In this document: positions 48,996-59,896 of the stretch, in pieces | How the letters are laid out: each line of letters starts with the position of its first letter | Position numbering within the stretch: position 1 is the stretch's first letter | Source of the DNA: an uncultured Granulosicoccaceae bacterium | Lineage (GTDB): Bacteria > Pseudomonadota > Gammaproteobacteria > Granulosicoccales > Granulosicoccaceae | Reading direction: 5' to 3' | Assembly (NCBI GenBank): GCA_937922945.1 | Contig: CAKZUP010000062.1 | Span: forward strand, 1-64,000 | DNA: 64,000 bases | Notes under the pieces: model-generated | What the model was told of the DNA's origin: nothing | Databases searched by the model: none | What the model saw: the letters and a program-made list of their open reading frames with translations, nothing else | Program-made: the position numbers and the translations under genes

Positions 48996-49655
48996 ATGCT
49001 TAAAATTTCAACCGTTACATTGTCTTATGCTGCAGGCTCAGTTTTTTTCCTACTTGCACATTCGGCTACAGCCGAAACATTCTCCGCCGACGTCTGGGCT
49101 GATAACTGGTTTTCACTGAACGTGAATGGCGCACAAGTTGCCGAAGACAGTGTGTCGATTACCACTGAGCGATCGTTCAACGCAGAAAGCTTTACGTTTA
49201 CAGCGGAACGCCCTTTCGTACTCGGCCTGACTGCAAAAGACTTTAAAGAAAACGACACAGGCCTGGAATACATTGGAAGTCGCAGGCAACAGATGGGCGA
49301 TGGCGGCGTAATTCTTCAAATCAAGGATGAGAGCGGTAACACCGTCGCTGTGACCTCCGATGACTGGAATTGCATGGTTGTACATAAAGCCCCCATAGAT
49401 AAATCTTGCGAGCAGGAAGATAACCCAGTTGCTGGTGAGGGTGCCTGTGGGTTTGAAACTACCGATGTCCCTATGGACTGGGATAGAGCCAGCTTCGACG
49501 CATCTGACTGGGCGGCAGCAACAGAACACAGCGAAAGTGCCGTCAGCCCGAAAGGCGGCTACGACCGCATCTCCTGGGACTCCAATGCCCGACTGATATG
49601 GGGAGCTGATTTAGAAACTGACAACACGGTCTTATGTCGATTCACCGTTGAATAG
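48996..49655 (+). CDS. secreted hypothetical protein
   Basis: Signal peptide (SVFFLLAHSATAETFSADVWADNWFSLNVNG...), Cys-containing C-terminal half; overlaps start region of the next gene. Confidence 0.8.
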   Translation: MLKISTVTLSYAAGSVFFLLAHSATAETFSADVWADNWFSLNVNGAQVAEDSVSITTERSFNAESFTFTAERPFVLGLTAKDFKENDTGLEYIGSRRQQMGDGGVILQIKDESGNTVAVTSDDWNCMVVHKAPIDKSCEQEDNPVAGEGACGFETTDVPMDWDRASFDASDWAAATEHSESAVSPKGGYDRISWDSNARLIWGADLETDNTVLCRFTVE

Positions 49656-50673
49656 TGAGCATTTTATCAGCATGGGAATCAACATCACATTAAGCACTCA
49701 CAAATTGCGCAGGTGGATGCTTTACACATCTGCTATAAGCGCTACGCTGCTAACAATGCCGGTTGCTGCCCACGATGAACAGTCACATTGCGCCGCAATC
49801 ACCGCATCAATAACCGATGCAGGCTTTAGCAATGACGTCACTGTTGCCTGCTCTGCAGGTCAGGCAGTGATTGCATCAGATACCTACCCCGATCATGAAG
49901 TAATGACAGGTATTGTTGGAACGAATGAACAGCTACCCGTCCCAGCTGATTATGCCGCGCCGATTCCGTTGCAACCCGCACTGAGTTCATCACCCGTTAC
50001 CCGAGATGCCGCGCTTGGCGTGGCCGTTAATGGTGTACCGATATACGATTACACCGCCGGCGGTGAAATGTCAGAAGAAGACCTCTACCATCACCAGACA
50101 CAACACGACACGCTGATTACCCAACAGCTGGATATCTGCGGCGGTCACGCTGGACGCGGTGATGATTATCATTACCACGTTAAACCCACTTGCATGATTG
50201 AACAAATGGACAACGCCGGCGACGATGCGATTATTGGCTGGGCCTTCGATGGCTTTCCAATTTATGGTGATAAGAATCCGGATGGAACAGGCATTGCCGA
50301 CGGTACATTGGATGTATGCAATGGGCAGAAAGATGAGACGTTCGGCTATCGTTATCACACATCGCAAGCAGCGCCTTACATCGTGCAATGCCTTATGGGC
50401 GAGGTTGCCAGCGTGCGAAGCTTACCGCGAGTTAAACCATTGTCTCCCGCACCCGGTGAACCAACACGCGAAGCTGGAAGGCCACCTGCGGGTGGAGTTC
50501 AGGACCTCACGTTTACTGAAGATGCCTCAGGAACCCGTCGGATGGACTATACCTATAAAAGTGAAGCTTATTACATGCAGTACGCACCAACCGAGCAAAG
50601 CGGGTGTTATGCGTTCCAGACACGCACCGTTACAGACGCAGGTGTTACTAAACAAGGTGAGTATTGTCGATAG
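49648..50673 (+). CDS. YHYH domain-containing secreted protein
   Basis: VAVNGVPIYDY, CGGHAGRGDDYHYHVKPTC, GWAFDGFPIYG, CNGQKDETFGYRYHTS; ORF start may be the downstream in-frame ATG (MGIN...). Confidence 0.9.
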   Translation: MNSEHFISMGINITLSTHKLRRWMLYTSAISATLLTMPVAAHDEQSHCAAITASITDAGFSNDVTVACSAGQAVIASDTYPDHEVMTGIVGTNEQLPVPADYAAPIPLQPALSSSPVTRDAALGVAVNGVPIYDYTAGGEMSEEDLYHHQTQHDTLITQQLDICGGHAGRGDDYHYHVKPTCMIEQMDNAGDDAIIGWAFDGFPIYGDKNPDGTGIADGTLDVCNGQKDETFGYRYHTSQAAPYIVQCLMGEVASVRSLPRVKPLSPAPGEPTREAGRPPAGGVQDLTFTEDASGTRRMDYTYKSEAYYMQYAPTEQSGCYAFQTRTVTDAGVTKQGEYCR

Positions 50674-50764
50674 AACACTGCATTAACCTAGCAAGGTTTT
50701 AATAAATCCCGTTCACATCCCCATGCAATTCGTATGAACAAACACAGCAACTGAAAAACTACTT

Positions 50765-51703
50765 ATGAATACACTTAATACTCCGATACAGCGCTTAAAC
50801 GCCAGTATCATTTTTATACTGATACTGTTCGTCAGTGGCTGCAGCTCTAATGACGACGGTGATGCAGCGTCATCATTAGATGAAACGGACACCTCTCGTG
50901 AAACGGACACCTCTCGTGAAACGGACACCTCAGGAGAAACAGACACCTCTGGTGAAGCATCAAACACGGACGAATTCACTCTGCCGGCTCTGTCCTGCGA
51001 AGAAATAGCCAGTAAATTTGTTACTAAAGGGTCGGCAAACGCAGATTTAGCCGAGCCATTTGTTAGCGCATCCTGTGTTGATAGCAATGTCGTAATCAAC
51101 TCAAATCAAATACCGGATTTTCCTTACATTGTTACGTCTCCGGGAAACCCGCAAGCAAACGATCTGGAAATCACGATTACTGCGACCCCCACTGTTGCGG
51201 AGGCCGTTAGCGATGTTCCGGCACTTGGCGCGCTGGGCATCGCCATCAATGGCATTCCTATTTTCGGCGCTACAGAAGGTACAGGTGGAGATGTATTATC
51301 ACTTGGCGGTGGCTTCACCGAATGCGGCGGACATAATGGCCCCACTGGCTATCACTATCACACGTTCGATGTGGATGGCAGTGACTACTGCCTTTTCTCT
51401 GAAGCGGAAGCTACACCGGAACCACAACTGTTCGGATACGCGTTAGACGGATACCCGATTTATTCAGGTAACTTCCAGTACACGTCATCTTGGTACCTTA
51501 GCGATCCTTCGCTGTTTGCAACTGATACGTTTTCTGCGCATACCTTTGTAGAGGGCTCCGGCGATCTCGACCAGTGCAATGGCAGAACGGATGCGAACGG
51601 TAACTACGCCTATTACACAACCGACGACTTTCCCTACACGCTTGGATGTTACAGAGGTGTTGTTGAAGCTGGTACTGGCGGTACCGGACGTCCCCCACGA
51701 TGA
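50765..51703 (+). CDS. YHYH domain-containing lipoprotein
   Basis: Lipobox-like FVSGCSS; IAINGIPIFG, CGGHNGPTGYHYHTFD, GYALDGYPIYSG. Confidence 0.9.
   Translation: MNTLNTPIQRLNASIIFILILFVSGCSSNDDGDAASSLDETDTSRETDTSRETDTSGETDTSGEASNTDEFTLPALSCEEIASKFVTKGSANADLAEPFVSASCVDSNVVINSNQIPDFPYIVTSPGNPQANDLEITITATPTVAEAVSDVPALGALGIAINGIPIFGATEGTGGDVLSLGGGFTECGGHNGPTGYHYHTFDVDGSDYCLFSEAEATPEPQLFGYALDGYPIYSGNFQYTSSWYLSDPSLFATDTFSAHTFVEGSGDLDQCNGRTDANGNYAYYTTDDFPYTLGCYRGVVEAGTGGTGRPPR
50882..50953 (+). repeat. 18-bp tandem repeat, 4 copies, in-frame
   Basis: GAAACGGACACCTCTCGT x4 (last two diverged), encoding ETDTSR/G repeats after the lipobox. Confidence 0.95.
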
Positions 51704-52296
51704 AGTCAATAGCGATGAGGCGACGACAGCTGCTCACCGCCAGCGCCGTGTTACCTGCGTCACTTTTAATCGCATCGAATGCAGCTGCTTCTGAACCAAC
51801 CGATGCCGACATTGGTTTCTGTCAGGACATGAGCATCCATCACTTGCAGGCGCTGGTCATGTGCCAACGGGTACTCGGCAGAGATACTGGCGATGCTGTG
51901 CAGGCAGCAGCGGCAGAAGTTCTGCAGAATCAGGCAATGGAAGTGGGTCAAATGCGTGCCTGGTTAACCGATTGGGGCGCATCAACCGTACCACCGGTTT
52001 CCGTCATGGCCTGGATGGGAGCGAATCAGGGACAGGGCATGCCATTAGCGTATATGCCAGGCTATGCAAGCGATGAGCAACTACTTGAACTCTCGACGAC
52101 TGTCGGCCTGTCCCGTGGTCGTAAATGGCTTGAACTAATGCGCGCTCATCATGTGGGTGGCGTTATGATGGCAAGTCAGGCACAAACGCTTTGTTCATCC
52201 GAAAAAGTGATTCGATTGGCCACTCGTCAGGTGAGTACGCAAAATTTTGAAATAGAGCAGTACGATTTATTATTGGCAGGCCAATACGCTCAGTAG
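51700..52296 (+). CDS. DUF305-like exported protein
   Basis: Signal with MRRRQLLTASAVLPASLLIASNAAA; GFCQDMSIHHLQALVMCQRVL ... ELMRAHHVGGVMMASQA. Confidence 0.85.
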   Translation: MKSIAMRRRQLLTASAVLPASLLIASNAAASEPTDADIGFCQDMSIHHLQALVMCQRVLGRDTGDAVQAAAAEVLQNQAMEVGQMRAWLTDWGASTVPPVSVMAWMGANQGQGMPLAYMPGYASDEQLLELSTTVGLSRGRKWLELMRAHHVGGVMMASQAQTLCSSEKVIRLATRQVSTQNFEIEQYDLLLAGQYAQ

Positions 52297-52773: not shown

Positions 52774-52801
52774 TGTCAACCAAATTAGCGCTGCCGCGTT
52801 G
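52774..52801 (+). promoter_or_regulatory. ECF-type promoter motif copy 1
   Basis: TGTCAACC-N14-GCGTTG, 31 nt upstream of ATG 52833. Confidence 0.6.
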
Positions 52802-52832
52802 TTCTGTTCAAGTCCATAAAAATCTTGACATC

Positions 52833-53426
52833 ATGTTTGAACTAATCACCACGTTTAAGCTAATTACTACAACCGAATGGCTCAGATTAGGCTTACTGTA
52901 CAGCCACTTAGGTCTGTGTATTTTCGCAATCAGCTCCATACTGAAAACAGACATTGCCCTGTTTTTTGGCCACGTGACGCATGACGAATTGGCTGCGACA
53001 GCCAAATCCGTTTCAGTGCTTCTACTTTTACTCTGGGCAACTGGCTTAACCATAATTTATATCGATACTGGCTTCCTGCCCAGCATTCTAATGACCAACT
53101 CAAAGCTTCTGCTAAAGCTTATGTGCGTGTGTATGCTGACGTTAAACGGAATCCTGTTACACCATATTTCGTTTCCGGTATTGACCAATAATTCTGGACG
53201 CATAACAGCAGGCGAATCGGTACTACTGGTTGTTACGGGCGCACTAAGCACCAGTCATTGGCTGTTGGCAGCGTTTGTTGGTATGTCAAGACCGCTTGGA
53301 AGATTGCCTTTTGCAACGCTTTTTAGCGCCTATGGCCTATTCGTACTGACAGTGGTTGTCTCATCGTTATTTTTTATCCCCACGCTCTCCAGAGTAAAGC
53401 CTGTGGCTTCATCCAATCCTGCCTAA
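52833..53426 (+). CDS. multi-pass inner-membrane protein, uncharacterised
   Basis: MFELITTFKLITTTEWLRLGLLYSHLGLCIFAISSIL... about 5 hydrophobic segments; ATG 52833 chosen because the promoter motif lies within the longer ORF. Confidence 0.8.
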   Translation: MFELITTFKLITTTEWLRLGLLYSHLGLCIFAISSILKTDIALFFGHVTHDELAATAKSVSVLLLLLWATGLTIIYIDTGFLPSILMTNSKLLLKLMCVCMLTLNGILLHHISFPVLTNNSGRITAGESVLLVVTGALSTSHWLLAAFVGMSRPLGRLPFATLFSAYGLFVLTVVVSSLFFIPTLSRVKPVASSNPA

Positions 53427-53479
53427 ACAACGGCACGGAACCCTTATTTTTATTTATTTACATTAGAGCGAATACAACA

Positions 53480-55405
53480 ATGACTCGTTACACTAAACCA
53501 TCCATCGCCCTGTTGCTGGTGAGCGCGATAACTGCTTGCGGCAATAACGGCGATAACGACAATGCAGCACAAGACAACGTCGACTTAAGATTTAACGACA
53601 ATACAGGACAAACAGGTTTCGAACCTGATTCATCACAAAGCGTCATTACCAATGCGGTAAACCGAGGGGACGACAACGACAACGACAACGACAACGGGAA
53701 CGGGAACGGGAGCGGGAACGGGAACGGGAACGGGAACAATCTGCGTAACAATAACCGTTCTCCGCAAGGTATACCCAATAATGGAAATGATCGACGGAAC
53801 AACGCCCGTGGCCAACGCAATCAAAACAACGGTTTTGGCCCTATTATGGTAGACAACACTGAAGTACGCAGCTTTGATGGCAGTGGCAATAACCAAGCCT
53901 TTAATGATTGGGGTTCGTCGTTTTCCCATTTGCAGCGGATTGGTGAAGCGAACTATAGCGACGGAACATCGAGCATGATCTACACCGACAAAGCCGGCGC
54001 GCGAGAAATCAGTAACACTATCGTTAATCAAGAAGCCGGAGAAAATATTCCCAACCCATTTGGAACCACTGATTTTAGTTGGCAGTGGGGGCAGTTCATT
54101 GATCACGACATTGACTTAACCGATGGCAGTGCTGATGAACCTCAAGATATTCCTGTGCCCATTGGCGATCGCTATTTCGATCCGGCAGGTACCGGCACGG
54201 CAGTTATCGCATTCAACCGCGCGTTGTTCGACCCCGAAACTGGCACAGATGTCACTAACGTGCGCGAACAAGAAAACGAAATAAGCAGCTGGATTGACGG
54301 CTCTATGGTGTATGGCTCCACAGATGAAAGAGCTGCAGCGCTACGCGTCGGACCCAACAGCCCATTTTTAAAAACCAGCAACGGAAATCTACTGCCGTTT
54401 AATACGGAAAGCCTTGTTAACGCAAACGGGCCTGTCCCCGATCCAACCACACTTTTTTTAGCCGGTGATATCAGAGCGAACGAACAAGTGGGCTTGGCAG
54501 CTATGCACACCTTGTTTGTGCGTGAGCACAATCGTCTTGCCAATCAGCTATTAGCTAACAATCCGAACGCGGATGCTGAGAGCATTTTTCAAGCTGCAAG
54601 ACGATTAGTGGTAGCGGAAATTCAAATTATCACTTACAACGAACACCTGCCCTCTTTAATTGGTGCTGGTGCAATTCCACCCTATACCGGCTACGATGCC
54701 TCAGTTAATCCAACCATTTATAACGAGTTTTCCGCTGCGGCATACCGGTTAGGTCATAGTATGGTCAGCGAACAACTGCTGCGCATTGGCGCCGATGGTT
54801 CATCGATATCCGAAGGGCCACTAGCCTTAGACCAAGCATTTTTCCGAGCCCCACAGCTACTGCGTAGCGAAAACGATATCGATCCAATATTGCGCGGATT
54901 GGCGATGCAAGTACATCAGTCCATTGATGTGAAAGTGATTCACCCGTTGAGGAATCTGTTGTTCGGGGCACCGGGCTCGGGTGGACTGGATCTTACCGCG
55001 TTAAATATTCAACGCGGTCGAGACCACGGTTTGCCAACCTACACCAGAATGAGGGAAATTATGGGCCTAAGTCCGATTACTGATTTTTCTCAAATCAGTG
55101 ACGACGTTACCTTAAATCAATCACTGCAAGACGCTTATGGTGATGTGTCGAAAATTGATTTATGGATTGGTGGCTTGGCCGAAGCGCCTTTGACCAATCA
55201 GGGCTCTCAAATGGGCGAGTTATTTCAAGCCATTCTGGTCAAGCAGTTTACAGAACTAAGAGATGGTGACAGGTTCTGGTATGAGATTTACCTGAACGAT
55301 GAAGAACTAGGTTTGGTGGAGAACGTAACACTGGCAACGGTAATTCGAAACAATACCAATATCGGAAATGAACTGCAAAGCAATGTGTTCTATGCCAATC
55401 CGTAA
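53480..55405 (+). CDS. animal-type heme peroxidase (peroxidase-cyclooxygenase superfamily), exported lipoprotein-like
   Basis: LLLVSAITACGNN lipobox; TTDFSWQWGQFIDHDIDLTDG (distal His), AAYRLGHSMVSEQLLRI (proximal His), DLTALNIQRGRDHGLPTYTRMRE. Confidence 0.93.
   Translation: MTRYTKPSIALLLVSAITACGNNGDNDNAAQDNVDLRFNDNTGQTGFEPDSSQSVITNAVNRGDDNDNDNDNGNGNGSGNGNGNGNNLRNNNRSPQGIPNNGNDRRNNARGQRNQNNGFGPIMVDNTEVRSFDGSGNNQAFNDWGSSFSHLQRIGEANYSDGTSSMIYTDKAGAREISNTIVNQEAGENIPNPFGTTDFSWQWGQFIDHDIDLTDGSADEPQDIPVPIGDRYFDPAGTGTAVIAFNRALFDPETGTDVTNVREQENEISSWIDGSMVYGSTDERAAALRVGPNSPFLKTSNGNLLPFNTESLVNANGPVPDPTTLFLAGDIRANEQVGLAAMHTLFVREHNRLANQLLANNPNADAESIFQAARRLVVAEIQIITYNEHLPSLIGAGAIPPYTGYDASVNPTIYNEFSAAAYRLGHSMVSEQLLRIGADGSSISEGPLALDQAFFRAPQLLRSENDIDPILRGLAMQVHQSIDVKVIHPLRNLLFGAPGSGGLDLTALNIQRGRDHGLPTYTRMREIMGLSPITDFSQISDDVTLNQSLQDAYGDVSKIDLWIGGLAEAPLTNQGSQMGELFQAILVKQFTELRDGDRFWYEIYLNDEELGLVENVTLATVIRNNTNIGNELQSNVFYANP
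53667..53736 (+). repeat. low-complexity Asp/Asn-Gly/Asn hexanucleotide repeats inside heme peroxidase gene
   Basis: gacgacaacgacaacgacaacgacaac then (gggaac)n with one gggagc, encoding DDNDNDNDNGNGNGSGNGNGNGN. Confidence 0.92.
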
Positions 55406-55501
55406 AGACGCATTTAGAAATAACCCAGCAACCGCGGTTGTCGAGCCAGATAACTCGCTTCTAATTCTGATAAGACGCAATTAACACAGCAAACTTAAGT
55501 G

Positions 55502-55535
55502 ACAGTGACTGCTGCTGTAGTGCAGCAGTCACTGT
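55502..55535. terminator. perfect 14-bp inverted repeat downstream of heme peroxidase
   Basis: ACAGTGACTGCTGC-TGTAGT-GCAGCAGTCACTGT. Confidence 0.65.
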
Positions 55536-55634
55536 TGGCGCACTCGCCGCGTTACTGTGTTCAACCGCACAAATCTGAACGCAGTGAACATAACTGACTG
55601 TGACCTTGCTCCATTGAATCAAATTTCAGATTCT

Positions 55635-55662
55635 TGTCAACCGATTAAATGATCATGCGTTG
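55635..55662 (+). promoter_or_regulatory. ECF-type promoter motif copy 2
   Basis: TGTCAACC-N14-GCGTTG, 39 nt upstream of ATG 55702. Confidence 0.65.
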
Positions 55663-55701
55663 AAACAGGTAAGCACATTTTTAAAGTACAGGTTATACCG
55701 C

Positions 55702-57093
55702 ATGTCCAACAGTTCAAAAATGGTACATTTAAAAACACCGTTTTGGTGTCTAAATCTTCAATGCAACCACCAACCACGCGAAACGGATTCAGGATGGTCT
55801 TTGCAATCAAAGGCCGCTTTACTACCAGCAGACGCACGAAAATCGTTTTTGACCTTTGCCTTGCTCAGCGTATTAACCGCTTGTGGAGAGGGCTCATCTT
55901 CAGATTCGGCGACGGTTTCGGTGGAAGCTCCAGCAGGGGGCGAGCTGCTAACGGGGACAAACATAACTGAAGATCTCGTCAACTCAGACAACAGCACAGA
56001 CAATCAAATGAACGTGGTAGCGGTTGGTCAAGTCCGTACAGTCGAGATCGATAATGTCATATTAACTTCACTGCCCGACGCCATTGCGGCCCCCCCTGCC
56101 GATCGAGTTGAGCTGGGCCGGCTTCTGTTCTGGGACCCTATTCTCTCCGGTGACGGCGACATTGCATGCGCTAGCTGCCACTTACCAGAGTTCGGGTACG
56201 CTGATGGGCGAGCCCGTTCTATCGGTGTTGGTGGTGTAGGCGCTGGTCCAGATCGCGTCGTCGGTCATACCGGTGTTGTGCCGCGCAATGCACCCACTGT
56301 TTTGAATACTGCGTGGAATGGCATTACCGAACTCGGCGCTTTTGACCCCGAGCTTGCACCCATGTTTTGGGACATCAGAACTCGAAGCCTAGCGGAACAA
56401 GCGCTTGAACCGATTCGTTCGCAACAGGAAATGCGAGGTGATAACTTCACCATTGAGCAAATGGAGGCGGAAGTACTAAATCGGTTGAATGCTAATGCCG
56501 ATTACCAAAGACGATTTCTTTCAGCGTATGGCAGTCAGGATATCTCACTGTCCATGCTAGGCTCCGCTCTTGCGGATTTTCAGACAACCTTAATCGCTAA
56601 TAACGCCCCTTTTGATCGATGGGTACGAGGCGACGCCAACGCAATGACTGCTGCTCAAATACAGGGCATGGAAGAATTTGTTGATACCGGCTGTGCAGAA
56701 TGCCACTCTGGTCCATTATTTTCGGATTTCGAAACACACGTGCTTGGCGCACCGGAAGCTGCCGGCTTGGAAACTCCAGATACTGGCGATGGAAATTTCG
56801 GTTTCCGCACACCAAGTTTGCGACAACTCGCATTTACTGCGCCCTACTTTCACGGTGGACAACAGGATTCTCTGGAGGACGTAATCGATTTCTATGACAA
56901 CCCCGGTCGCTCGGAAAACCCGAATGTCCTCACCAATGCACTGGATGATGATTTCAGGAACTTACCGAACATCAATGGCCAGCGCGCTAACCGTATTGAG
57001 CAGTTTCTCAACGCACTTAGTGACAGCCAGTTCGACCGAACTCGGCCTGAAACCGTCCCTAGCGGACTGCCTGTAGGAGGTTTGATCGATTAA
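55702..57093 (+). CDS. di-heme cytochrome c peroxidase/MauG-family lipoprotein
   Basis: SVLTACGEGSS lipobox; CASCH and CAECH heme motifs; RNAPTVLNTAWNG, FRTPSLRQLAFTAPYFHGG; ORF extends to a TTG at 55660 but that overlaps the promoter motif. Confidence 0.92.
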   Translation: MSNSSKMVHLKTPFWCLNLQCNHQPRETDSGWSLQSKAALLPADARKSFLTFALLSVLTACGEGSSSDSATVSVEAPAGGELLTGTNITEDLVNSDNSTDNQMNVVAVGQVRTVEIDNVILTSLPDAIAAPPADRVELGRLLFWDPILSGDGDIACASCHLPEFGYADGRARSIGVGGVGAGPDRVVGHTGVVPRNAPTVLNTAWNGITELGAFDPELAPMFWDIRTRSLAEQALEPIRSQQEMRGDNFTIEQMEAEVLNRLNANADYQRRFLSAYGSQDISLSMLGSALADFQTTLIANNAPFDRWVRGDANAMTAAQIQGMEEFVDTGCAECHSGPLFSDFETHVLGAPEAAGLETPDTGDGNFGFRTPSLRQLAFTAPYFHGGQQDSLEDVIDFYDNPGRSENPNVLTNALDDDFRNLPNINGQRANRIEQFLNALSDSQFDRTRPETVPSGLPVGGLID

Positions 57094-57104
57094 CTTGTGT
57101 ATAT

Positions 57105-57132
57105 TGTCAACCGATTTCATCACTGTGCGTTG
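57105..57132 (+). promoter_or_regulatory. ECF-type promoter motif copy 3
   Basis: TGTCAACC-N14-GCGTTG, 138 nt upstream of sigma factor ATG. Confidence 0.65.
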
Positions 57133-57270
57133 TACAACGATAACGACACTTTTAACCCACATTTAAAATCAGGGAAACATATATTATGAGAATGCAAACA
57201 GTAAAGCGGCTTACCAGGACAAGTCGATAGCGAACCGCCCCATTTCAGTTCGCAATCGCCTAAAATCACT

Positions 57271-57882
57271 ATGTACACTCCAGGTTTCGCTCAAAGTTTG
57301 AATTTAAACGACATACAATCCGCAGATTCTCATTCAGATCGATCTGTGCAGCAAAGGATGGATGGTTTTTTAGCCTCGGTTGAAAAGCGTGCGTATGTTA
57401 TCGCACTGGCAGCTTGCCGTGATCCCCAAACTGCGCTGGACATAGTCCAGGACAGCATGTTCAGTATGGTTAAGAGCTATGCAACCAAGCCGCCGGAGCA
57501 ATGGCCGCCTTTATTTTATAAGGTTCTGAACAATCGAATTACTGATCAACACCGCAAGCGCGGCTTTGGTCGGTTGGCACAATGGTTCGGCAATGATAGT
57601 GCCGAAGGTGAGCCAGTAACCGAAGCGGTCGATCAGTTACCCTCTGATGAGTGTAGCCCAGACAATGTCGCCGGCTCCACCGAACTAAGCAGTGCAATGG
57701 AATCTGCATTAGCTGCACTACCATTAAAGCAAAGGCAGACTCTGGTACTGCGACTATGGCAAGGTTTGAGTGTAAAGGAAACTGCAATAGCCATGGACAT
57801 CTCTGAAGGTTCTGTTAAAACCCATTTGTCTCGAGCTGTTCATGTTATGCGTGAACATTTACAGGAGTTCAAGCCACAATGA
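57271..57882 (+). CDS. ECF-type RNA polymerase sigma factor
   Basis: VIALAACRDPQTALDIVQDSMFSMVKSYATKPPEQWPPLFYKVLNNRITDQHRKRG (region 2), LPLKQRQTLVLRLWQGLSVKETAIAMDISEGSVKTHLSRAVHVM (region 4). Confidence 0.95.
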   Translation: MYTPGFAQSLNLNDIQSADSHSDRSVQQRMDGFLASVEKRAYVIALAACRDPQTALDIVQDSMFSMVKSYATKPPEQWPPLFYKVLNNRITDQHRKRGFGRLAQWFGNDSAEGEPVTEAVDQLPSDECSPDNVAGSTELSSAMESALAALPLKQRQTLVLRLWQGLSVKETAIAMDISEGSVKTHLSRAVHVMREHLQEFKPQ

Positions 57883-58370
57883 GCACGAAACCAACTAGCG
57901 AGAGCAAAAGTAACAGTAAACCAACGATTGGAGAAGAGCTGAATAGCGATGGCTCACTGTTGAAAAGTGATCAGTGGATGATAGATTCATTGCGCACTCA
58001 TCTTGATTCCCAAGCCGACCACTTAGACTTTAACACTACCAGTAAGTTAAGCGCCGCACGACGCCAAGCTTTAGCACAAGAGCCTGTAGGCGAATCTAAT
58101 ATTAGCTTTGCTCGATCTCGACTCGCTTCATGGTTCAATTGGACAACTGTTGTTGGTAGCACCGCCGTTATAGCTGCGGCTATTTTTTTAGGGCTACAAT
58201 TTAATCTAATGAATCCGTCGCAAGTTGGTGGCCCAGCTGAATGGACAACGGAAAATCAGGTGTCTCAGCAGATGCTTATAGAAGATCTCAACCTTCTAAG
58301 TGCCAGTGACGATATTGAATTTTATCAATCGGTTGAGTTTCTGGAATGGATGGAAAGTAATTCCGGGTGA
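57879..58370 (+). CDS. DUF3619-like single-TM protein, candidate anti-sigma factor
   Basis: Start overlaps sigma stop (ATGA); LRTHLDSQADHLDFNTTSKLSAARRQAL then TM WTTVVGSTAVIAAAIFLGLQF. Confidence 0.75.
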   Translation: MSTKPTSESKSNSKPTIGEELNSDGSLLKSDQWMIDSLRTHLDSQADHLDFNTTSKLSAARRQALAQEPVGESNISFARSRLASWFNWTTVVGSTAVIAAAIFLGLQFNLMNPSQVGGPAEWTTENQVSQQMLIEDLNLLSASDDIEFYQSVEFLEWMESNSG

Positions 58371-58567
58371 ATATGAAAAGTCCAATATTGATTTTCATTC
58401 TACTGGTGGTTTTCAAGCTGGCAGTAGCTGCAGATGAGCCGCTTGATATGGACTTACTTGAGTGGCTGGGTGAAACAGCAGAAGCGGAAGAACTGGGTGT
58501 GGATATCGAAAACCTCTTACAATCACAAGAAGACTCGGAACAAAAAACCGAGGAGAATTCTCAATGA
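58367..58567 (+). CDS. small exported acidic protein
   Basis: 66 aa; overlaps both neighbours by 4 nt; signal peptide MKSPILIFILLVVFKLAVAADEP. Confidence 0.7.
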   Translation: MNMKSPILIFILLVVFKLAVAADEPLDMDLLEWLGETAEAEELGVDIENLLQSQEDSEQKTEENSQ

Positions 58568-59112
58568 ACCAACTAATCATAGCCATTGCTGCTCTCATGT
58601 TAATGGTTTCAGGAAGTGCATTTGCAGCTCCACTCTGGAATGAATTATCGGATGCCCAGCAACAAAAACTGCAACCACTAAGCAACAGCTGGGACGACAT
58701 GAGTGAGACGAGAAGAGAGAACATTCTAACCGGCCTTAATCGATGGGAGTCTTTGGACAACAATGCGAAACAACGAACAAAACAGCAATTTGAACGGTAT
58801 CAGTCTTTAAGCAATGAAGATCGCGAAGAGCTAAGACAACAATTTAATCGGTTCCAAAATATGGATGAGGACAGAAAAACAAAATTGCGTGATTTGTATA
58901 AAGAATTCAAAAATAAGTCGGAAGACGAGCGTGCTAGCTTGAAAAAGCAATACGATGAAAACCGAAATTCAAACAATCGGAATAGAAATAACAGCTCTGA
59001 CACTAACGATAATAGCGGCAGATCACCATCACAACAGCCTTCCAAAGGTGATAATGACAACAATAGCAAGCAAAACGAACAGTCGGGAGATGGAGGTAAA
59101 TCCAAAAAATAG
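58564..59112 (+). CDS. DUF3106 domain-containing exported protein
   Basis: Signal peptide; PLWNELSDAQQQKLQPLSNSWDDMSETRRENILTGLNRW..., charged low-complexity tail. Confidence 0.87.
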   Translation: MNQLIIAIAALMLMVSGSAFAAPLWNELSDAQQQKLQPLSNSWDDMSETRRENILTGLNRWESLDNNAKQRTKQQFERYQSLSNEDREELRQQFNRFQNMDEDRKTKLRDLYKEFKNKSEDERASLKKQYDENRNSNNRNRNNSSDTNDNSGRSPSQQPSKGDNDNNSKQNEQSGDGGKSKK

Positions 59113-59350: not shown

Positions 59351-59896
59351 GTGATCAAAAACAACCTAATTAGAGTGGCATACGCAACAATTTTCTTCTC
59401 ATTATTTATCGCACGTTTCGCACATGCCGAAAACGTTGAAATTTATCTGCAAGACATGCTCGACAATACGCAAAGTGGCTATTGTATCGACATTGCGCGG
59501 GCTCAAGGCAGTAAAGCAAACCCCGATGATGGCCTTCAAGGCCACACTTGCTACAGCCCCCAGGGTGAGCTTATGGTAGATCAGATTTTTGATACAGAGA
59601 AGTTTGCCGACGGTATTCTTTACATGCCAGAATTTGATGTTTGTGCAGAAGTTTCTGCCCTTGCTGCGGGTTCCGCAATTGGCCTGTCGGCGTGTAACGG
59701 TTCTGACGAACAGTCTTTTCAGTTTTCTGGCGAAGGAACAATTGTCCCCAGCTCAGCAACCGACATGTGCCTAACCGTAGCCGACGCCACACGTACCGGC
59801 AGAAGTGATGCCAATCAGATAAAAGTACTAACACTGGAAGCTTGTTCAGATGACTTGAAGAGCCACCAAGCCTGGGCCGTTCGCAGCGGCTTGTAA
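59351..59896 (+). CDS. secreted ricin-B-lectin-like protein
   Basis: Signal peptide; SGYCIDIARAQGSKANPDDGLQGHTCYS ... MCLTVADATRTGRSDANQIKVLTLEACSDDLKSHQAWAV beta-trefoil-like repeats. Confidence 0.7.
   Translation: MIKNNLIRVAYATIFFSLFIARFAHAENVEIYLQDMLDNTQSGYCIDIARAQGSKANPDDGLQGHTCYSPQGELMVDQIFDTEKFADGILYMPEFDVCAEVSALAAGSAIGLSACNGSDEQSFQFSGEGTIVPSSATDMCLTVADATRTGRSDANQIKVLTLEACSDDLKSHQAWAVRSGL

Follow-up and report, generated by a model that had tools for sequence, protein, structure and literature searches.

In Acinetobacter, the extracytoplasmic function (ECF) sigma factor SigAb reads promoters with a -35 GTCAAC and a -10 CGTT element, which were established by 5' RACE (rapid amplification of cDNA ends), mutagenesis, reporters and chromatin immunoprecipitation sequencing (ChIP-seq), and a spacing of 16 nt between the two elements is nearly as good as 17 (PMC12153292). 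SigAb is autoregulated, has three direct targets (itself, relA and the small RNA sabS) and responds to copper, and both AabA and AabB have anti-sigma activity; AabA-SigAb was modelled as CnrY-like, and SigAb was called Acinetobacter-specific from a comparison with RpoE orthologues (PMC12153292). Another autoregulated ECF sigma factor, that of the RpoE2-ChrR system of Shewanella oneidensis, controls PgpD, an exported peroxidase, as part of the response to oxidative stress (PMC4336711). Here, we analyzed 64 kb of DNA (positions 1 to 64,000 of contig CAKZUP010000062.1; the window) from an uncultured Granulosicoccaceae bacterium (GCA_937922945.1), in which the motif TGTCAACC-N14-GCGTTG occurs three times near one ECF sigma gene. 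With high confidence, we read the three motifs as predicted -35/-10 elements of this SigAb-family sigma factor, which would drive its own operon, a MauG-like peroxidase gene and an operon encoding a membrane protein and an animal-type heme peroxidase.

Compared with the SigAb system, the locus has several common features. First, a protein search of Acinetobacter baumannii records found a sigma gene whose product is 34% identical to the window sigma factor and scores 237 bits with NF006550, followed in overlapping frames by a 106-aa protein with one transmembrane (TM) segment and a DUF3106 protein. We identified this locus as sigAb-aabA-aabB by its features and not by locus tag, because the TM residues (42-64), the signal peptide (1-21) and the overlapping frames match the published description, and its upstream sequence contains GTCAAC-N17-CGTT, whose spacer includes a TTTT run, as also described (PMC12153292). 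Three records of a plasmid collection (NZ_CP077849.1, NZ_CP064203.1 and NZ_CP104448.1; H2-H4, 3.7-4.1 Mb) resemble A. baumannii chromosomes. Second, SigAb, the window sigma factor and its relatives form one clade in a tree (100/98), apart from the other ECF factors of the host, with the caveat that the outgroup branches are long. Third, both systems have an NF006550 sigma factor, the gene order sigma, one-TM protein and exported DUF3106 protein, a promoter before the sigma gene itself with the core GTCAAC / CGTT, and a very small direct regulon (three sites here). As the clade, the operon and the mapped core are the same, the sites in the window would be SigAb-type promoters. In contrast to SigAb with its targets (itself, relA and sabS), the window sigma factor is predicted to control a membrane protein and two heme peroxidases; the spacer is N16, whereas it is N17 at sigAb, the TM protein can be assigned to DUF3619, and an additional small exported open reading frame (ORF) separates the TM and DUF3106 genes.

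Other known systems are more distant. Like CnrYXH of Cupriavidus metallidurans, the locus combines a sigma factor, a short putative membrane anti-sigma factor and an exported helical protein, but the DUF3106 protein matched no PDB chain in sequence, CnrX included, and its AlphaFold model, which is all helix with a mean predicted local distance difference test (pLDDT) score of 85, likewise gave no PDB match with Foldseek. RpoE2-ChrR also pairs an autoregulated ECF sigma factor with an exported peroxidase, but it is a functional analogue only, with a TGATCC / CGTA promoter, the ChrR anti-sigma factor and a glutathione peroxidase, in contrast to GTCAAC / CGTT, DUF3619 and heme peroxidases here. 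Membership in the RpoE-ChrR (ECF11) group was rejected on the promoter and on the downstream gene, which is DUF3619.

The motif itself is well defined. The original prediction had claimed three exact, equally spaced copies and a closer likeness of copies 2 and 3; all three were found again on the + strand with 0 mismatches (Table 1), the next-best matches in the window having 3, and copies 2 and 3 additionally have TGTCAACCGATT-N9-TGCGTTG in common. A genome-wide search, which had been proposed as a check, returned only these three exact matches in the whole assembly (5.04 Mb, 225 contigs), all on the same strand and at most 5 kb from one ECF sigma gene, together with 2 one-mismatch and 59 two-mismatch sites, about the same as for the reversed-pattern control. 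Across all 8+6 words counted in the window at spacers of 8-20, this was the sole dispersed pattern with at least three copies, while the remaining 56 such patterns span at most 200 bases. A comparable dispersed triple occurred in 0 of 20 Markov-simulated windows, in agreement with the claim that the triple is very unlikely by chance. Further regulon targets sought in the genome by core matches were not found, as the other GTCAAC-N16-CGTT sites lie within reading frames, bar one without a nearby ORF start.

Conservation upstream of orthologues, the other proposed check, was examined with orthologous sigma genes gathered from GTDB genomes and relatives. So that the choice of sites could not bias the result, every combination of a 6-mer and a 4-mer was counted blind in 38 upstream regions and in five shuffled sets. 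The top gapped word was GTCAAC-N16-CGTT, present in 26 of the 38 regions and in at most 4 in the shuffles. It is found with fixed spacing and a variable spacer in Granulosicoccaceae, Alteromonadaceae, Porticoccaceae/SAR92, Acidiferrobacteraceae, Desulfuromonadales and Nitrospinaceae, and the Acinetobacter-specificity of SigAb fails at the level of the family, whose predicted members are carried by other classes and phyla. In an alignment of 42 sites, unselected positions were also informative (RAWT after the -35 element and T before the -10 region), and a YA step about 10 nt after CGTT, at a position unused in site selection, fits a transcription start; the predicted starts in Table 1 were placed by this element. 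In relatives, the corresponding promoter stands at the same place before the sigma operon as promoter 3. The order sigma, DUF3619, small ORF and DUF3106 is retained in Granulosicoccaceae, and distant relatives retain the sigma and DUF3106 genes.

The interval between promoter and sigma gene varies. Many relatives carry there an exported EF-hand or coiled-coil gene that is absent in the window. An exported EF-hand gene opens the sigma operon at L102:7303-7752, L034:6406-6846, L095:9706-10182 and L096:9171-9797, an arrangement that recalls the cabp-sigV pair of Caulobacter (PMC13171946). In the window, the stretch from promoter 3 to the sigma gene contains a 14-codon ORF (MRMQTVKRLTRTSR, 57186-57230); at the matching place, G022 (L103) has a short ORF that also starts with ATGAGAATG, and in other relatives the EF-hand or coiled-coil gene takes this place. 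Betaproteobacterial members of the family (L047-L052) have no promoter core upstream, and this branch may use another promoter sequence or specificity.

The motif also leads to the same targets at a distance from the sigma gene. In 95 relatives, YGTCAACCRAW-N12-CGTTK matched 38 times and the reversed pattern 5 times. Where the sigma gene is not on the same contig, the motif precedes animal-type peroxidases (G015:C82, G047:C194), a peroxidase and MauG pair (G032:C170), a MauG-like gene (G045:C75), membrane-protein orthologues (G005:C125, G024:C4) and, in G039, an amidohydrolase followed by a MauG-like gene; a few matches inside reading frames look like chance. When checked from the gene side, the motif was present at membrane-protein orthologues (G005, G012, G018, G024, G029), peroxidases (G005, G020, G022) and MauG genes (G010, G024, G030), and G029:C71 retains the order of membrane protein and peroxidase, preceded by the motif. 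Target orthologues mostly lack the motif where the genome has no sigma gene. Motif and sigma gene co-occur both in the relatives (Fisher p=1.4e-6, optimistic owing to phylogenetic non-independence) and in a class-wide sample (p=8e-6), in which 7 of the 19 motif matches from other genomes are followed within about 1.1 kb by a sigma gene of the family. Some target loci show decay: just upstream of the MauG promoter of G010, a 61-aa peroxidase remnant contains a stop (L102:10505-10690), and the peroxidase gene of G015 is split over two frames (L143:2682-4717), by decay or assembly error.

Footprinting, unlinked targets, co-occurrence and the mapped SigAb promoter thus support the original claim that the adjacent sigma factor, itself autoregulated, reads the motifs as -35/-10 elements, and both promoter function and the identity of the sigma factor are very likely. 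Some observations weigh against this. The 10-base core is not above its reversed control genome-wide, so only the extended motif is diagnostic, and the exact core is missing from 12 of the 38 upstream regions, mainly in the betaproteobacterial branch and on truncated contigs. In sigma-bearing genomes, 3 of eight or nine membrane-protein orthologues have no motif, and the same holds for some peroxidase orthologues. Conversely, G032 and G047 have motif-bearing peroxidase loci and no sigma gene was found in their assemblies, which are 84% and 80% complete. Finally, we infer the anti-sigma role of the DUF3619 protein from its position, topology and conservation.

Different explanations of the motif were also considered. 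Sigma factors of the ECF type often cross-talk and the genome has 16 sigma-70-like matches, so the promoters could be read by another of its about 12 other ECF factors, instead of or alongside the neighbour. We consider this improbable, since the motif goes together with this sigma family in different classes and phyla, precedes the family's own gene and equals the mapped SigAb core, and the other ECF factors of the host fall outside the clade. An operator of a dimeric transcription factor has still less in its favor: AAC and GTT are reverse complements, and all three window copies end in GTTG, which gives a CAAC...GTTG inverted repeat with arms about two helical turns apart. However, this inverted repeat was rejected because its half-sites are asymmetric across the 42 sites, with AACC on the left (C in 40/42) and CGTT on the right, where symmetry would require GGTT. 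The final G is present in only 21/42, RAWT is one-sided, an initiator-like YA lies downstream, and in the SigAb promoter, mutagenesis revealed -35 and -10 roles for the same two elements (PMC12153292). That the copies are a short dispersed repeat without regulatory role, by chance or shared origin, can practically be dismissed: two of the three have extra common bases (GATT, TG), but the flanks are dissimilar beyond the promoter positions, the simulated windows held no such triple, and a spacing kept across phyla while the spacer sequence varies, together with the footprinting, contradicts it.

Table 1 Predicted promoters and genes of the SigAb-type regulon in the window.
Feature	Position	Strand	Details
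SigAb-type ECF promoter 1	52774..52801	+	-35 GTCAAC 52775-52780, -10 CGTT 52797-52800; predicted start near A52810
197-aa membrane protein, first gene of operon with animal-type peroxidase	52833..53426	+	conserved His110, His142
Animal-type heme peroxidase	53480..55405	+	PF03098 E=1e-144; lipoprotein-like signal, low-complexity linker
SigAb-type ECF promoter 2	55635..55662	+	-35 55636-55641, -10 55658-55661; predicted start near A55671
MauG-like di-heme c peroxidase	55702..57093	+	PF03150 E=1e-45; two CxxCH; lipoprotein-like signal
SigAb-type ECF promoter 3, autoregulatory	57105..57132	+	-35 57106-57111, -10 57128-57131; predicted start near A57142
ECF sigma factor, SigAb family	57271..57882	+	NF006550 180 bits vs cut-off 173
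Probable membrane anti-sigma factor, DUF3619	57879..58370	+	PF12279; one TM segment
Small exported ORF, 64 aa	58373..58567	+	position conserved in Granulosicoccaceae
DUF3106 exported helical protein, AabB counterpart	58564..59112	+	PF11304 E=4e-21

Profiles confirmed the families of the genes that the copies had been said to precede, namely the membrane protein/animal-type peroxidase pair, the MauG-like peroxidase and the ECF sigma factor. The sigma factor scores above cut-off with Sigma70_r4_2 and TIGR02937 and weakly with Sigma70_r2 (20.5 vs cut-off 24), and with regions 2 and 4 only and about 200 aa it belongs to the ECF type (group 4). Motif 1 lies 59 nt from the ATG of the membrane protein. 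The listed start of the MauG ORF (TTG 55660) overlaps the -10 element of promoter 2, and therefore translation must begin further downstream, most likely at ATG 55702, whose distance of 67 nt from motif 2 fits the 59-68 nt of several peroxidase orthologues. Housekeeping promoters and terminators sought in the region were not above shuffles. The animal-type peroxidase contains GQFIDHD, REHN and QRGRDHG and has lactoperoxidase and peroxinectin as PDB relatives, and the MauG-like protein carries CASCH and CAECH and has di-heme peroxidases as PDB relatives; both are predicted to be extracytoplasmic from lipoprotein-like N-termini read in the sequence. In-frame tandem repeats of 6/18-bp units are present in the N-terminal linker of the animal-type peroxidase (53666-53737). 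The 197-aa membrane protein matched no Pfam or NCBIfam family, and the best match of its fold, the di-heme cytochrome b subunit of quinol:fumarate reductase, was not significant (E=0.32). The DUF3619 alignment shows a conserved cytoplasmic LDFN-SKL-AAR motif and a conserved outer tail, and our literature search for a link of DUF3619/DUF3106 with sigma factors found none.

Using these parts, a mechanism can be proposed by analogy with SigAb. In the resting state, the DUF3619 protein, likely an anti-sigma factor aided by DUF3106, would keep the sigma factor bound at the membrane, and the exported DUF3106 protein would assist on the outer side. An envelope signal would free the sigma factor; from the targets and the copper-responsive SigAb, our best guess is oxidant or metal stress outside the cytoplasm. 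The freed sigma factor would fire the three promoters and turn on its own operon (sigma factor, DUF3619 membrane anti-sigma factor, small exported protein and DUF3106), the MauG-like di-heme peroxidase and the membrane-protein/animal-type peroxidase operon, and more heme-peroxidase capacity outside the cytoplasm would result, a physiological role that we infer for the two peroxidases. It is doubtful, though conceivable, that the regulon is one envelope electron-transfer unit, in which the membrane protein would bind heme b through His110 and His142 and pass quinol electrons to the outer peroxidases, and the SigAb-type sigma factor would sense envelope oxidant or copper stress via DUF3619/DUF3106.

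Just upstream of the regulon, 48996-52296 encodes two YHYH proteins and, with a CopM-like match below cut-off, a DUF305 protein, with an in-frame tandem repeat of an 18-bp unit in YHYH2 (50881-50956); YHYH2-DUF305 also adjoins the motif-bearing membrane-protein orthologue of G005:C125 (L150). After the sigma operon, 59351-59896 encodes an exported ricin-B-type lectin domain protein, and G010 has an orthologue at the corresponding position (L102:9781-10374).

In conclusion, the new element is a predicted SigAb-family regulon in Granulosicoccaceae, consisting of a membrane protein, two predicted extracytoplasmic heme peroxidases and an autoregulated sigma operon. The so far uncharacterised sigma/DUF3619/DUF3106 module thereby gains a predicted function class, promoter sequence and target list. 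With the SigAb family and its promoter core in other Gammaproteobacteria, Desulfuromonadales and Nitrospinaceae, the results from Acinetobacter can guide work there. In addition, the animal-type heme peroxidases of bacteria would be tied to a dedicated stress regulator.

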